Positions 5,888 through 9,876 of a stretch of DNA of 22,431 nucleotides are shown piece after piece. Every line of letters begins with the position of its first letter. The first letter of the stretch is position 1. Source of the DNA: an uncultured Ruminococcus sp. (lineage in GTDB: Bacteria > Bacillota_A > Clostridia > Oscillospirales > Acutalibacteraceae). Location of the stretch: the NCBI GenBank assembly GCA_902798605.1, contig CADBXH010000013.1, forward strand, positions 1 through 22,431, read 5' to 3'. Made by a program: the position numbers and the translations under genes. The notes under the pieces were generated by a model. That model was not told the origin of the DNA, ran no database searches, and saw only the letters and a list, made by a program, of their open reading frames with translations.

Positions 5888-5916
5888 TTGCAAATTGTAC
5901 AAATTTTCTTTATAAT
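5888..5916 (+). promoter_or_regulatory. Promoter of the DUF2997 / radical SAM / AAA+ cluster
   Basis: TTGCAA at 5888-5893, a 17-nt spacer and a perfect TATAAT at 5911-5916 form a sigma-A promoter. Transcription would start near 5923, about 45 nt before the DUF2997 ATG. No equally good promoter was seen inside the cluster up to 11346, so it probably drives the whole set. Confidence 0.78.
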
Positions 5917-5968
5917 AGTAATGATATACCGATGATATTATATTTACCGTAATTGAGAGGAGTATTAT

Positions 5969-6172
5969 ATGAAACAGATCGTATTTAGAATAAAAAACAA
6001 CGGTGAGATCATATCCGAAACCGTTGGAATGAAGGGCAAGGAATGTCTTAAATATGTGACTGAGATGGAGCGTATGGCAAACGCGGTAACACAGGATTCG
6101 CGTTTTACGGACGAGTATCTTGAACAGCAAAACCGTATTACCGGCGATTACAAAGAGGAGGTAAACGCGTAA
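5969..6172 (+). CDS. DUF2997 family small protein
   Basis: This 67-residue protein begins MKQIVFRIKNNGEI and continues with SETVGMKGKECLKYV. It matches the DUF2997 pattern: a short N-terminal beta-hairpin, a G-x-K-G-x-x-C core and a C-terminal amphipathic, acidic helix. The conserved Cys is at about residue 28. The family has no established biochemical role. From general knowledge it tends to lie beside DUF1257 (Ycf35-like) and Ycf46-like AAA+ genes, and that is what is seen here. GAGAGGAG precedes the ATG. Its stop overlaps the next gene by one base (TAATG), which points to translational coupling. It is the first gene after the promoter at 5888-5916. Confidence 0.8.
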   Translation: MKQIVFRIKNNGEIISETVGMKGKECLKYVTEMERMANAVTQDSRFTDEYLEQQNRITGDYKEEVNA

Positions 6173-7191
6173 TGAGTATTACCAATAAAGGCACAAAATG
6201 GGAATGGAAGAACTCATGGTATTTGTTGTTGATGTTTCTTTTTCCCGGCGGCTTCATTCCGTTTTTTATGATGTATAGCCGCTCGCAGAGGAAATCATTT
6301 CTTATAAAAGGTTTTGTGTATATATTTCTTGTTGTTTTAATGTTTATTGCTATGGCAAGCACAAATAGTATATACAATGCATTTAAGACGCCTGTTCCCG
6401 AGCCTCCTAAGCTATCTGATTATGTTGATACGAATAAACCATATAATGAATACAGAAACAGTGAAGAATACAAAAAATATGAAAATGCTTTAAAAGCTTA
6501 TCGGGATACTGATGAGTTTAAGAAGGCTACCGAATCAAACAATGCTCTTAATAACAATGTTCGGTCTTTTAGTATTGTAATTTTTATATCATGCGTCATT
6601 GGCTTGTTTATTCTTGTGTTTGTCGGATTTTTTGTCGACCGTCCGAAGTACTTGCGTGATTTGGAGCAAAAGGAAAGGGAGCAACGGTTCAAGAATGACT
6701 ATTTGAGCAATGCTATGAATAACCGTGCCGCAAACCGCGCTGTTCCCGTAAATAACAATTTCACTCAGGGCGTACAGCAGCAAACAAATCCTCCTGTAAA
6801 CAATAGACCGCCGCAATATAACCCCGTATATAATCCTCAGCCGCAATATAACCCTGTAAATAACAATCAGCAGAGCAGTATGCCTGTACAGAATAATCCC
6901 GTTCAACAGTCATATGCTCCTGTTCAAAATACAGCTCCGTATGGCTATGATATCAATACTATGAGCGAAGAAGATTTCAACAAAATTGATTTGCTCAATG
7001 TTATAGATGTTAAAAAGATCATTCAGTACCGCAACACAAACGGAAGCTTCTCTACGGCAGACGAGTTCTTTAACTGCTTTGACGCTCGTCCGCACGTTAT
7101 AGCTAAGCTTCAGGATTCAATTGTTATTCAGCAAAACAAGACCGAAAATCCGAACCGAAGCAGCGCTTCATCAAGAAGATTTGATCTTTAA
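6172..7191 (+). CDS. Membrane protein with ComEA-like helix-hairpin-helix tail
   Basis: This 339-residue membrane protein has three predicted helices: about 16-35, 43-63 and 132-156. The segment at about 66-130 between helices 2 and 3 is charged and repeats the pattern EYRNSEEYKKYENALKAYR. A Lys/Arg/Glu-rich stretch follows helix 3. Residues 185-258 form an Asn/Pro/Gln/Tyr-rich linker with repeated QYNPV units. Residues 260-319 resemble a ComEA-type helix-hairpin-helix domain (DINTMSEEDFNKIDLL, IIQYRNTNGSF). The usual hairpin Gly-x-Gly is replaced by NVIDV, so double-stranded DNA binding is doubtful and a protein contact is possible. The start codon shares a base with the DUF2997 stop, and the stop shares a base with the next start. 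It probably anchors the cluster's proteins to the membrane; this is inference. No named family is assigned to the full protein. Confidence 0.75.
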   Translation: MSITNKGTKWEWKNSWYLLLMFLFPGGFIPFFMMYSRSQRKSFLIKGFVYIFLVVLMFIAMASTNSIYNAFKTPVPEPPKLSDYVDTNKPYNEYRNSEEYKKYENALKAYRDTDEFKKATESNNALNNNVRSFSIVIFISCVIGLFILVFVGFFVDRPKYLRDLEQKEREQRFKNDYLSNAMNNRAANRAVPVNNNFTQGVQQQTNPPVNNRPPQYNPVYNPQPQYNPVNNNQQSSMPVQNNPVQQSYAPVQNTAPYGYDINTMSEEDFNKIDLLNVIDVKKIIQYRNTNGSFSTADEFFNCFDARPHVIAKLQDSIVIQQNKTENPNRSSASSRRFDL

Positions 7192-7787: not shown

Positions 7788-9399
7788 AAAGAACTTGTCC
7801 AATTTAGTCAATGCGGGATTTACATATATTTATATTCCGTCATACGAGGAACGTCGCGTAATTAACGAAATCAACAATACCCTTTACAAAGATAATTCGG
7901 TAAAGATCGGCCGTAAGCTGTTTGTATGGACGCAGACAAACGGCTTGATGAACATTACTCCCGGCGATAAAGACAATAATAAAAAGGACACGCGCGACGC
8001 CGTGAAAGCGCTTGAGGAAATCTGCTCAGATAACGATCCCGCACTGTATATTTTTAATGATATTCATGTGTTCTTCGGCGGCGACAGGGGAACGCATCCC
8101 GATTATTTGCTTATCAGAAAGCTCAGGGATATTATCTCTCTTTTGCAGAGCAAGCGCAAAACGATCGTGTTCCTTTCACCAAAGCTTGTGATCCCCTGCG
8201 ATATGGAAAAAGAGATCACGGTACTTGATTTTGATTTGCCCGATATGGAAGATATGATTAACCTGCTTGATGATTTGTCCGGTGGCTTGAATCCTTCTCA
8301 GATACAGCTCACATCGGATGAAAAAAAGCAGCTTGCAAGTTCTGCCCTCGGTCTGACCCTTCAGGAAGCCGAAAACGCGTTTTGCAAAGCGATAGTTGAC
8401 CTGCGCGGACTGAATATTAACGCGCAGAGTATTATTCATGAAGAAAAGAATCAGGTCGTAAAAAAGACAGGCGTGCTTGAATTCGTCAAATCCGATTTGA
8501 GCATTGACGATATAGGCGGACTTGAAAACCTTAAAAAATGGCTGATAAAAAGAAAGGGCACATGGACAGAAAAAGCCCGTAAATATAATCTTCCGGCGCC
8601 TAAGGGAGTGCTCATAACAGGTGTTCCCGGCTGCGGTAAATCCCTGACCGCAAAGGCAATGAGCTCTATTTGGGGGCTGCCGCTGTTAAAGCTCGATATG
8701 GGCAAGATATTCGGCGGACTCGTCGGCAGCAGTGAGGAAAATATGCGCAAGGCTATTTCTACCGCCGAGGCGATCGCTCCCTCGATCCTTTGGGTCGATG
8801 AGATCGAAAAGGGTCTTTCGGGCGTAAAATCAAGCGGTGACTCCGGAACATCGGCAAGGGTGTTTGGAACCTTTCTTACGTGGCTGCAGGAAAAAACAAA
8901 GCCCGTATTTGTTATCGCCACAGCTAACGATATAAGCGCTTTGCCTCCCGAGTTGCTCAGAAAAGGCCGTTTTGACGAGATTTTCTTTGTCGATTTGCCG
9001 ACATTTGAGGAGCGCAAAAAGATATTTGAGCTTCATATCAACAAGCGGATCAAGGATTCCGATATTCAGCACGAGGTCGCCGCGACTGATGATGTCCTCA
9101 ATAATCTGGCGTCAATGAGCGCGGGATATGTCGGCGCCGAGATAGAGCAAATTACGGTTGCTGCTTTGTATGAGGCGTATTACCTCGACAGAGGACTTCG
9201 CGAATCTGATTTGGAAAAGGCAGTAAAAGAAACCGTTTCGATTTCCACAACACAAAAAGAGCAGATCCTGTCACTTCGTGAATGGGCAGAAAACCGTGCT
9301 GTGCTCGCAACCGCTAAAGAAGACCGCGAACCCGATACAAGCGAAGGTTCTGATGATATAGGACATCAGGGTGGCAGAATCGTTAACTTTGATTTATAA
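7774..9399 (+). CDS. Ycf46-like AAA+ ATPase
   Basis: This 541-residue protein has the Ycf46 arrangement. An N-terminal domain of about 210 residues (NAGFTYIYIPSYEERRV, KLFVWTQTNGL, FLSPKLVIPCDMEKEITVLDF) resembles a degenerate AAA fold without a P-loop. It is followed by a full AAA+ module. Walker A is GVPGCGKS (283-290), Walker B is ILWVDEIE (Asp342, Glu343), and IATAND (about 383-388) is sensor 1. RKGRFDEIFF holds the likely arginine finger. GYVGAEIEQ lies in the C-terminal lid. The last ~50 residues are charged and end in GGRIVNFDL. The family is known from plastids, cyanobacteria and scattered bacteria, and its substrate is not established. GGGAGG precedes the ATG, which lies within the end of the radical SAM gene. 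All ATPase residues are present, so it should be active. Confidence 0.87.
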   Translation: MSEFRKNLSNLVNAGFTYIYIPSYEERRVINEINNTLYKDNSVKIGRKLFVWTQTNGLMNITPGDKDNNKKDTRDAVKALEEICSDNDPALYIFNDIHVFFGGDRGTHPDYLLIRKLRDIISLLQSKRKTIVFLSPKLVIPCDMEKEITVLDFDLPDMEDMINLLDDLSGGLNPSQIQLTSDEKKQLASSALGLTLQEAENAFCKAIVDLRGLNINAQSIIHEEKNQVVKKTGVLEFVKSDLSIDDIGGLENLKKWLIKRKGTWTEKARKYNLPAPKGVLITGVPGCGKSLTAKAMSSIWGLPLLKLDMGKIFGGLVGSSEENMRKAISTAEAIAPSILWVDEIEKGLSGVKSSGDSGTSARVFGTFLTWLQEKTKPVFVIATANDISALPPELLRKGRFDEIFFVDLPTFEERKKIFELHINKRIKDSDIQHEVAATDDVLNNLASMSAGYVGAEIEQITVAALYEAYYLDRGLRESDLEKAVKETVSISTTQKEQILSLREWAENRAVLATAKEDREPDTSEGSDDIGHQGGRIVNFDL

Positions 9400-9411
9400 T
9401 AGGAGGAAATT

Positions 9412-9876
9412 ATGTCTCTTGTATTAACAATGACTTCAATGGCTGTTTTGGCAGGACTTTCGCTTACACACATATCTGCAGGTGTGATTGCCGAGATCCT
9501 TGATGGCAAAAATAAGCAGGAAGTGTCAGAGGGCTTTGAGACTGTTTTTACAGACTCGCAAATGCTTTATAACACCCTTACGGACTATGATTGCCATGTT
9601 GAAAAAGTGTCCGAAAACGAATTCCTTGTTGACACTGTCAACGGAAAATTAAGATATTACAGAAAAGATGAGAACACACCGTTTTCAATTTATTTTGACA
9701 GAATAGATAATCCCGACGGGCTTATGAGAAGTATTGATGAGTTTGAGCGATGTTACGGCAGAAATGTCCAGGATTTTACATACAATCATATAAAGCAAAA
9801 TCTCGCCCCTAATATGCGGATTTATGACGAACAGGTCGTTGATGACGAGCTTGTTCTGACCATAAGCGTAGATTAG
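9412..9876 (+). CDS. Divergent Ycf35/DUF1257-like protein with N-terminal hydrophobic helix
   Basis: This 154-residue protein starts with a hydrophobic segment (about residues 1-28, MSLVLTMTSMAVLAGLSLTH) that could be a membrane anchor. It continues with an alpha-beta region. The C-terminal half has the layout of DUF1257/Ycf35: a 'difficult to predict L..L.DYDCHVEK' strand-helix start, an NGKLRYYR strand, then FTYNHIKQNL followed by a closing EQVVDDELVLTISVD hairpin. In DUF1257 proteins the matching end reads like a Tyr-helix followed by an acidic turn and L-x-V strand. The similarity is weak and rests partly on the neighbourhood, since Ycf46-like, DUF2997 and DUF1257 genes tend to occur together. 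It uses almost the same ribosome site (AGGAGGAAATT) as the AAA+ gene and begins 12 nt after it, so the two are probably made in similar amounts. A fully novel family remains possible. Confidence 0.6.
   Translation: MSLVLTMTSMAVLAGLSLTHISAGVIAEILDGKNKQEVSEGFETVFTDSQMLYNTLTDYDCHVEKVSENEFLVDTVNGKLRYYRKDENTPFSIYFDRIDNPDGLMRSIDEFERCYGRNVQDFTYNHIKQNLAPNMRIYDEQVVDDELVLTISVD

Follow-up and report, generated by a model that had tools for sequence, protein, structure and literature searches.

A conserved, mobile five-gene AAA+ module in which the ATPase and a membrane partner share a C-terminal tail

The five-gene module

The window analysed here is a stretch of 22,431 nucleotides (contig CADBXH010000013.1, assembly GCA_902798605.1) from an uncultured Ruminococcus sp. 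It contains five consecutive genes on the + strand. The first encodes a DUF2997 protein (5969..6172; 67 aa; PF11211, 32.2 bits against a cut-off of 24.1) and is followed by genes for a helix-hairpin-helix (HhH) membrane protein (6172..7191; 339 aa), an NrdG-like radical S-adenosylmethionine (SAM) protein (7191..7787; 198 aa; Fer4_12, 129.2 bits), a Ycf46-like AAA+ ATPase (7774..9399; 541 aa; PF00004 (AAA), 100.2 bits) and a Ycf35-like protein, a remote relative of DUF1257 (9412..9876; 154 aa), assigned by profile alignment to cyanobacterial Ycf35. Although the AAA+ and HhH proteins are not related to each other, they were found to end in the same C-terminal peptide. This shared tail is the main finding, and both it and the mobility of the module were overlooked by an earlier note made from the sequence alone. 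The five open reading frames (ORFs) described in that note are all present. The first two junctions (6172 and 7191) are TAATG overlaps, the third and fourth genes overlap by 14 nt (7774-7787), and 12 nt (9400-9411) separate the last two. The note had read this translational coupling as fixed stoichiometry and a physical complex; coupling alone does not show either.

Related loci were collected by scanning genome contigs with a 13-sequence AAA+ alignment. At least 590 stretches matched, 479 of those listed encode AAA+ relatives, and the best 80 loci were kept for counts. A locus was called complete when all five genes lay within 6 kb on one strand, which was the case for 67 of the 80, and 270 of 277 intergenic gaps measured 100 nt or less. 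The clustering is therefore far beyond chance, and the five genes are a real conserved module. Twelve of the 80 loci lack one or more module genes, several of them at contig ends; HhH and/or radical SAM matches are missing from L031, L050 and L065 with no obvious contig edge, and most module genes are missing from L075, L078 and L079. L072, whose AAA+ gene runs past the contig end, was left out of the completeness call. Eight gene orders occur among the complete loci. HhH-radical SAM-AAA+-Ycf35-DUF2997 is the commonest (39 loci), the order of the window, DUF2997-HhH-radical SAM-AAA+-Ycf35, is found in 19, and the remaining nine loci are spread over six others. The genes thus stay together despite changes in their order and in distant phyla, in agreement with the earlier view of the operon as a unit. 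The expectation that radical SAM and DUF2997 genes accompany the AAA+ gene holds in this close family and fails in the wider Ycf46-like family, whose members often lack them. Clustering the neighbours of related loci revealed no conserved sixth gene across phyla.

A C-terminal tail common to the AAA+ and HhH proteins

The AAA+ protein contains a single AAA domain (residues 279-407). Its Walker A motif, GVPGCGKS (8620..8643, + strand; residues 283-290), has G283, G286, G288, K289 and S290 invariant in 42 sequences. Scoring was limited to the candidates with the most words in common, and all 7999 of them match; one relative is named SpoVK/Ycf46/Vps4 by its source. The AAA+ profile matches copies from cyanobacterial genomes over about 500-520 positions, so that Ycf46, a SpoVK/Ycf46/Vps4-type AAA+ protein, is a full-length relative. 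Unlike the module, the cyanobacterial Ycf46 loci L278-L290 have no HhH or radical SAM match within their short extent, and their tail does not take the GGR form. The HhH protein contains three hydrophobic stretches and a C-terminal helix-hairpin-helix domain (6949..7068, + strand; residues 260-299). It scores slightly below the cut-off for HHH_3 (PF12836; 25.7 bits against 27), which the relatives in L075, L079 and L080 pass, and relatives were found in 76 of 84 loci searched, window included. The earlier note's idea of membrane-linked remodelling is supported to this extent: a membrane partner probably works with the AAA+ protein.

The strict tail was defined as R-x-hydrophobic-[D/E]-hydrophobic ending no more than two residues from the protein end. 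In the related loci it was found in 77 of 81 AAA+ proteins (examples are RGGRALDF and QGGRIVDFDL) and 73 of 82 HhH proteins (GRIVDF, KRTIDL), and both proteins are tailed in 60 of the 67 complete loci. Elsewhere in these loci it is nearly absent: none of 75 radical SAM proteins, none of 79 Ycf35-like proteins, two of 72 DUF2997 proteins and 7 of 5516 other ORFs carry it. A slightly narrower pattern gave 66/85 AAA+ proteins, 72/84 HhH proteins and 3/5832 other ORFs. Seven of the nine HhH proteins that miss the strict pattern end one residue early (ERTVD, ERIVD, GRRVD). When the HhH profile was used without its last 15 residues, 81 proteins were recovered in 74 loci, of which 72 have the strict tail, or 79 with the early stops included. 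In the window the HhH protein ends in RRFDL (7174..7188, + strand) and the AAA+ protein carries GGRIVNFDL (9370..9396, + strand), one residue off the strict pattern. In an alignment of 40 AAA+ sequences the tail residues 533-539 have a mean entropy of 0.92 bits, against 2.57 for the linker at 515-530. Conserved tail columns after a variable linker are typical of a short linear motif carried by a flexible linker. A tail common to a motor and its partners is not described in the literature searched.

Docking to adaptors or partner rings by a short C-terminal peptide is known from the ssrA-SspB adaptor tags and the HbYX tails. These differ from the module tail in sequence, and in the module the ATPase and its partner bear the same peptide. 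Pvc15, an ATPase of extracellular contractile injection systems, is likewise an AAA protein, one that recognises its cargo by a short peptide at a terminus; in the account given there it has tandem AAA domains and reads N-terminal signal peptides (PMC11495950), whereas the module has one AAA domain and a C-terminal tail. A Pvc15-type loading ATPase was rejected on the basis of that single domain. An IetAS defence system was rejected as well, since the PADLOC match to IetA is confined to the AAA region (266-517) and the other four operon proteins gave no Iet hit.

Two further roles for the tail were considered and dropped. As a genome-wide client tag it would occur beyond the operon; in six genomes the strict pattern at the DNA level gave two to four hits per genome against zero to seven in the reversed control and so was not above control elsewhere. 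Both strict hits in genome G004 are the operon's own genes, as are two of the three in G003, where the third ends in TGG and not in a stop codon. A looser pattern gave 11-39 hits against 15-91 in the control in six other genomes and was uninformative beyond G154, in which five hits fall within 7.5 kb in an expanded operon. The glycine pair preceding the tail arginine was also considered as an activase site. This idea was abandoned because HhH tails do without it and because betaproteobacterial AAA+ proteins keep it although no radical SAM gene was found with them.

Mobility and further tail carriers

Complete gene sets were found on plasmids of Rhodococcus, Paenarthrobacter and Arthrobacter, two of the plasmids with all five genes being typed as conjugative, and partial sets were found in phages. 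Genome occurrence was counted for the AAA+ protein alone and not for the whole module. At E 1e-120, relatives are present in 1/148 and 6/200 genomes from the families of two clostridial loci, in 7/299 Bacillota genomes, in 33/119 genomes from the phylum of the planctomycete locus L080 and in 18/185 from the class of L079; at E 1e-100 they are present in 52/79 Cyanobacteriota genomes. Given the plasmid and phage copies and the rarity of the AAA+ protein in the two clostridial families, the module looks accessory and mobile.

In expanded gastranaerophilalean operons, additional proteins encoded on the same strand bear the tail. These include TPR proteins with an HhH-like end in L061 and L067, an HhH/TPR-type protein in L305, and Mrr-type nucleases with transmembrane segments, which carry the strict tail in L066, L305 and L306. 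Thus three of the five Mrr-type nucleases of such operons have the strict tail; the one in L303 ends GKKLDI and the one in L061 is untailed. What these operons suggest is a plug-in arrangement, with one ATPase and a short C-terminal tag that brings various proteins to it. Variant tails were also spotted by eye, with no background count, in more distant systems on plasmids and in phages. A Paenibacillus polymyxa plasmid encodes an AAA+ protein ending YRRISH next to two proteins of membrane type, whose ends are RVIHF and RVIRL, and two Bacillales plasmids have DIEF-type ends on the AAA+ neighbour. Phage neighbours of the AAA+ gene end RRAVKL (L322) and GRKITI (L323), and in mycobacteriophage L324 the AAA+ protein ends RVLDL and has a neighbour with internal GRAIDF and YALDF copies. 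A separate observation concerns the Treponema succinifaciens plasmid pTRESU01 (L339, 45000-90000), where a radical SAM gene and a tailed AAA+ gene (VRKLEM) lie among contractile-injection genes, as does a DUF2997 gene about 21 kb beyond the AAA+ gene.

The swappable partners and the distribution also raise the possibility of a biological-conflict system, acting against phages or in plasmid fitness, in which the AAA+ core would sense or remodel and the tailed proteins (membrane HhH protein, Mrr-type nuclease) would be effectors. The sparse occurrence of the AAA+ protein in the clostridial families and Bacillota, the copies on plasmids (conjugative ones included) and in phages, the Mrr-type nucleases and the phage-integrase-family genes that adjoin three expanded cassettes (L303, L305 and L306) speak for it. 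On the other side, PADLOC yields only the IetA AAA-domain matches, weaker AAA matches and a weak radical SAM/viperin match (E 6e-4), phages themselves carry relatives, and recurring neighbours of canonical loci resemble, by eye, ordinary chromosomal genes. A conflict function is regarded as a possibility held at well under even chances. It is compatible with tail docking and would give docking a purpose.

The Ycf35-like and DUF2997 proteins

The Ycf35-like window protein has no Pfam match, DUF1257 included, at E 1. Among its relatives, 4 of 55 reach DUF1257 weakly at E 0.1 or better, the best at 0.0027. Aligned with hhalign against cyanobacterial Ycf35, the family gave a probability of 77.6 and an E value of 1.9e-5 over 111 collinear columns. 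Moreover, in operons of plasmids and phages, genes annotated as DUF1257 stand close to those for AAA+ and DUF2997 proteins. By its sequence, the fifth protein is thus classed as a remote Ycf35 (DUF1257) relative. Its AlphaFold2 model (predicted local distance difference test score 77.5, predicted template modelling score 0.65) has a KA1-like arrangement. Sequence searches of solved structures gave no convincing match for the Ycf35-like, cyanobacterial Ycf35 or DUF2997 profiles, the low-E hits of DUF2997 being 10 residues of designed proteins. Gastranaerophilalean Ycf35-like proteins (L030-L077) are often longer, at 329-421 aa, with extra N-terminal sequence that is repeat-like by eye; the one long protein scanned had no Pfam match.

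In DUF2997, Gly12, Gly23, Cys26 and Thr47 are invariant over 21 sequences, three of them cyanobacterial, and all 72 copies from the module, like the three aligned cyanobacterial ones, keep Cys26. In photosynthetic cyanobacteria, DUF2997 and Ycf35 are reported clustered with the [4Fe-4S] ferredoxin Fed7, as cluster g (PMC4284462). The two systems are alike in that DUF2997 and Ycf35 are encoded with an iron-sulfur protein and the DUF2997 cysteine is kept. They differ in that cluster g, as listed there, has a ferredoxin instead of a radical SAM enzyme and no AAA+ or HhH gene (PMC4284462). Hsp70-like genes were seen beside the cyanobacterial AAA+/Ycf35/DUF2997 clusters L291, L294 and L295 by eye, and one is annotated, with GrpE, in L338. 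In red-algal plastids the presence of ycf35 and that of ycf46 are each reported to correlate with habitat (PMC5940233). The correlations given there fit a linked role for the two genes without showing one.

The radical SAM protein

The radical SAM protein has an NrdG-like core. It matches TIGR02491 (NrdG) over residues 3-148 with 126.6 bits, a margin of 0.5 bit over the cut-off of 126.1, and contains a CX3CX2C motif (7266..7289, + strand; residues 26-33) whose three cysteines are all 100% conserved in 73 sequences. The same 73 sequences share a C-terminal extension beyond the NrdG match, with the residues NGMGD. The protein is further set apart from NrdG by its company of DUF2997, Ycf35-like, AAA+ and HhH genes, and no NrdD was matched among the scanned window proteins.

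The earlier note had the AAA+ protein act on a partner that the NrdG-like enzyme activates or modifies, and it called the target of this activase the central puzzle, as no glycyl-radical enzyme is nearby. Pfam matched no such enzyme among the 18 window proteins scanned. The view that an NrdG-like enzyme activating a glycyl-radical partner is at the core of the system is not supported: clusters of AAA+, Ycf35-like and DUF2997 genes exist that have no radical SAM gene, for none is annotated in L335 or L338, and the radical SAM profile found nothing reaching E 0.01 in L291-L295 and L300. The pairing of DUF2997 and Ycf35 with Fed7, as reported for cyanobacteria (PMC4284462), also counts against it. 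It could still be supposed that the protein is an ordinary NrdG-type activase of a glycyl radical enzyme encoded elsewhere in the genome and that its operon company is incidental. The TIGR02491 score agrees with this supposition, whereas the conserved extension, the window scan and the fact that the gene accompanies the other four from Clostridia to actinobacterial plasmids do not, and it is considered very improbable. Taken together, the Fed7 pairing, the Hsp70-like neighbours and the kept Cys26 point to a chaperone-like machine with an iron-sulfur-dependent step, away from glycyl-radical chemistry.

Which partner reads the tail

Candidate readers were surveyed with 177 AAA+ relatives in 78 clusters at 70% identity, a Ycf35-like gene being scored when it lay within 4.5 kb on the same strand. 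A hydrophobic-acid-hydrophobic AAA+ end was found in 26 of the 35 clusters with such a gene and in 4 of the 43 without one (background ORFs, 93/3164). Tailed AAA+ proteins with a Ycf35-like gene include those of the planctomycete loci L191, L194, L199 and L202. In all 13 cyanobacterial loci L278-L290 the AAA+ protein has the end QRMEF or QRLEF and its gene adjoins a Ycf35-like gene, and in L270-L277, with short flanks, neither tail nor Ycf35-like gene was seen.

Several results weigh against a tail that serves as a docking peptide read by the Ycf35-like protein. In nine of the 35 clusters that have a Ycf35-like gene nearby, the motif in its defined form is missing, and some loci scored as having no Ycf35-like gene have flanks of only about 1.5 kb (L270, L274, L275, L277) or lie on cut contigs. 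On the AAA+ tree the association mostly reflects shared ancestry, and the tree-corrected test was not significant (8 independent pairs: 2.6 the same way, 0.3 opposite, 5.0 no difference); co-inheritance of tail and Ycf35 was strong as a count but was rejected as proven on this test. The window's own AAA+ tail departs from the strict pattern by one residue, the Foldseek E value for the KA1 match of the Ycf35-like model is just 0.03, and the AAA+ proteins of phages L322, L323 and L334 are untailed, L334 having no tailed neighbour among those translated. Lastly, the betaproteobacterial loci L075 and L079 have tailed AAA+ and HhH proteins, the AAA+ end in L075, GRALTF, departing from the strict pattern. 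Neither a Ycf35-like nor a DUF2997 gene was found in these loci, nor DUF2997 in the genomes, an empty profile search being weak evidence. Because of these two loci the Ycf35-like protein may not be the receptor. L075 itself comes from a metagenome bin labelled Bordetella parapertussis with a betaproteobacterial AAA+/HhH pair, and this label may be wrong.

The main rival reader is the AAA+ protein itself, for instance through an N-terminal domain on the neighbouring subunit. The HhH protein would then mimic the AAA+ tail and compete with or engage the ring, and the Ycf35-like protein would play another part. The AAA+ protein anchors every collected system and the tailed pairs of L075 and L079 are found without the other candidate, both of which are in its favour; set against it, the AAA+ proteins of 39 of the 43 clusters without a nearby Ycf35-like gene, some of these with short flanks, are untailed. 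Self-reading is given roughly one chance in four, and the Ycf35-like protein is favoured as the reader.

Alternatively, the tail could be a substrate of the radical SAM enzyme, which would modify the C-terminal peptide of both proteins. A radical SAM gene is present in all 67 complete loci (by definition) and few others lack it, and the tailed AAA+ genes of L320 and L244 adjoin a radical SAM gene, no Ycf35-like gene having been found with them. This reading gains a little from L191, where a divergent radical SAM gene lies next to the tailed AAA+ gene. It conflicts with L079, where both proteins are tailed and the locus gave no radical SAM match, with L335, whose AAA+ protein ends LQLDIRQ and which has no radical SAM gene among 13 annotated genes, and with L291-L295 and L300, which have variant tails and no radical SAM match. 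None was seen in L194, L199, L202 and L279 either, but these loci are short or cut on one side. Conversely, the radical SAM and DUF2997 genes of L257 and L258 stand together with no tailed AAA+ gene in their vicinity. Tail modification by the radical SAM enzyme is therefore disfavoured and regarded as improbable.

Proposed mechanism

A membrane-tethered AAA+ remodelling machine with a shared docking peptide, with the Ycf35-like and DUF2997 proteins as likely reader and the radical SAM enzyme as iron-sulfur partner, is put forward as a reading with about an even chance of being right. We infer docking as the mechanism with moderate confidence, and with it a receptor, a role for the radical SAM enzyme and a remodelled target. 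The operon would encode one accessory, horizontally moved protein-remodelling machine, in which the HhH protein (6172-7191) could anchor a Ycf46-like AAA+ ring (7774-9399) to the membrane. As the two carry the same C-terminal peptide on a variable linker, one kind of receptor site could accept both. The Ycf35-like protein (9412-9876), with a core modelled as KA1-like, would be the likeliest receptor, in partnership with the small DUF2997 protein (5969-6172). The place held in cyanobacteria by Fed7, next to DUF2997 and Ycf35, would here go to the radical SAM enzyme (7191-7787), which probably matures the Ycf35-like/DUF2997 pair or gates the pair by its redox state; the invariant DUF2997 cysteine would be the obvious site of its action. 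In expanded versions, the TPR-HhH protein and the Mrr-type nuclease may be recruited likewise through the same tail.

More speculatively, and with the odds against it, the tail may be part of an intracellular C-terminal addressing code. The AAA+ motor and swappable operon proteins would carry the tail, a KA1-like Ycf35-family protein would read it, a radical SAM enzyme or ferredoxin would set its state, and the kit would move between phyla on plasmids and phages. No paper on combinations of the module's parts was found in the literature searched, in which Ycf35, Ycf46 and DUF2997 are widespread with no assigned mechanism. The shared tail offers a concrete, cheap handle on who binds whom. Should a Ycf35-type protein be a KA1-like tail reader, this would also tell what plastid Ycf35 may do.

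Other features of the window

Upstream of the operon a promoter-like site, TTGCAA-17-TATAAT (5888..5916, + strand), agrees with the consensus at 10 of 12 positions. Sites of this quality numbered 12 in the scan and 10.5 in shuffles, so that the site is plausible as the single promoter proposed earlier for all five genes but not significant. A terminator-like hairpin (5788..5812, + strand) lies 3' of the upstream gene, with 10 pairs, six of them G-C, followed by a TTTTTGTTTGT-type sequence. About 1 kb before the operon, positions 2632-4983 encode a ClpB/ClpC-type double-AAA chaperone. A ClpB/ClpC-like gene was found 5-8 kb upstream of the AAA+ gene in seven loci, the window and six others, which may be coincidence.

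Near the operon on its other side, positions 10825-11346 encode a signal-peptidase S26-like protein with a lipoprotein-like N-terminus. Two adjacent, similar-looking membrane proteins (12039-12725 and 12833-13498) gave no Pfam match at E 0.001. At 11366-11813, a unit of about 189 bp is present in two to three copies and includes a terminator-like hairpin (AAAGCACCC..GGGTGCTTT) and the inverted repeat AAAACAGTCC-GCA-GGACTGTTTT.

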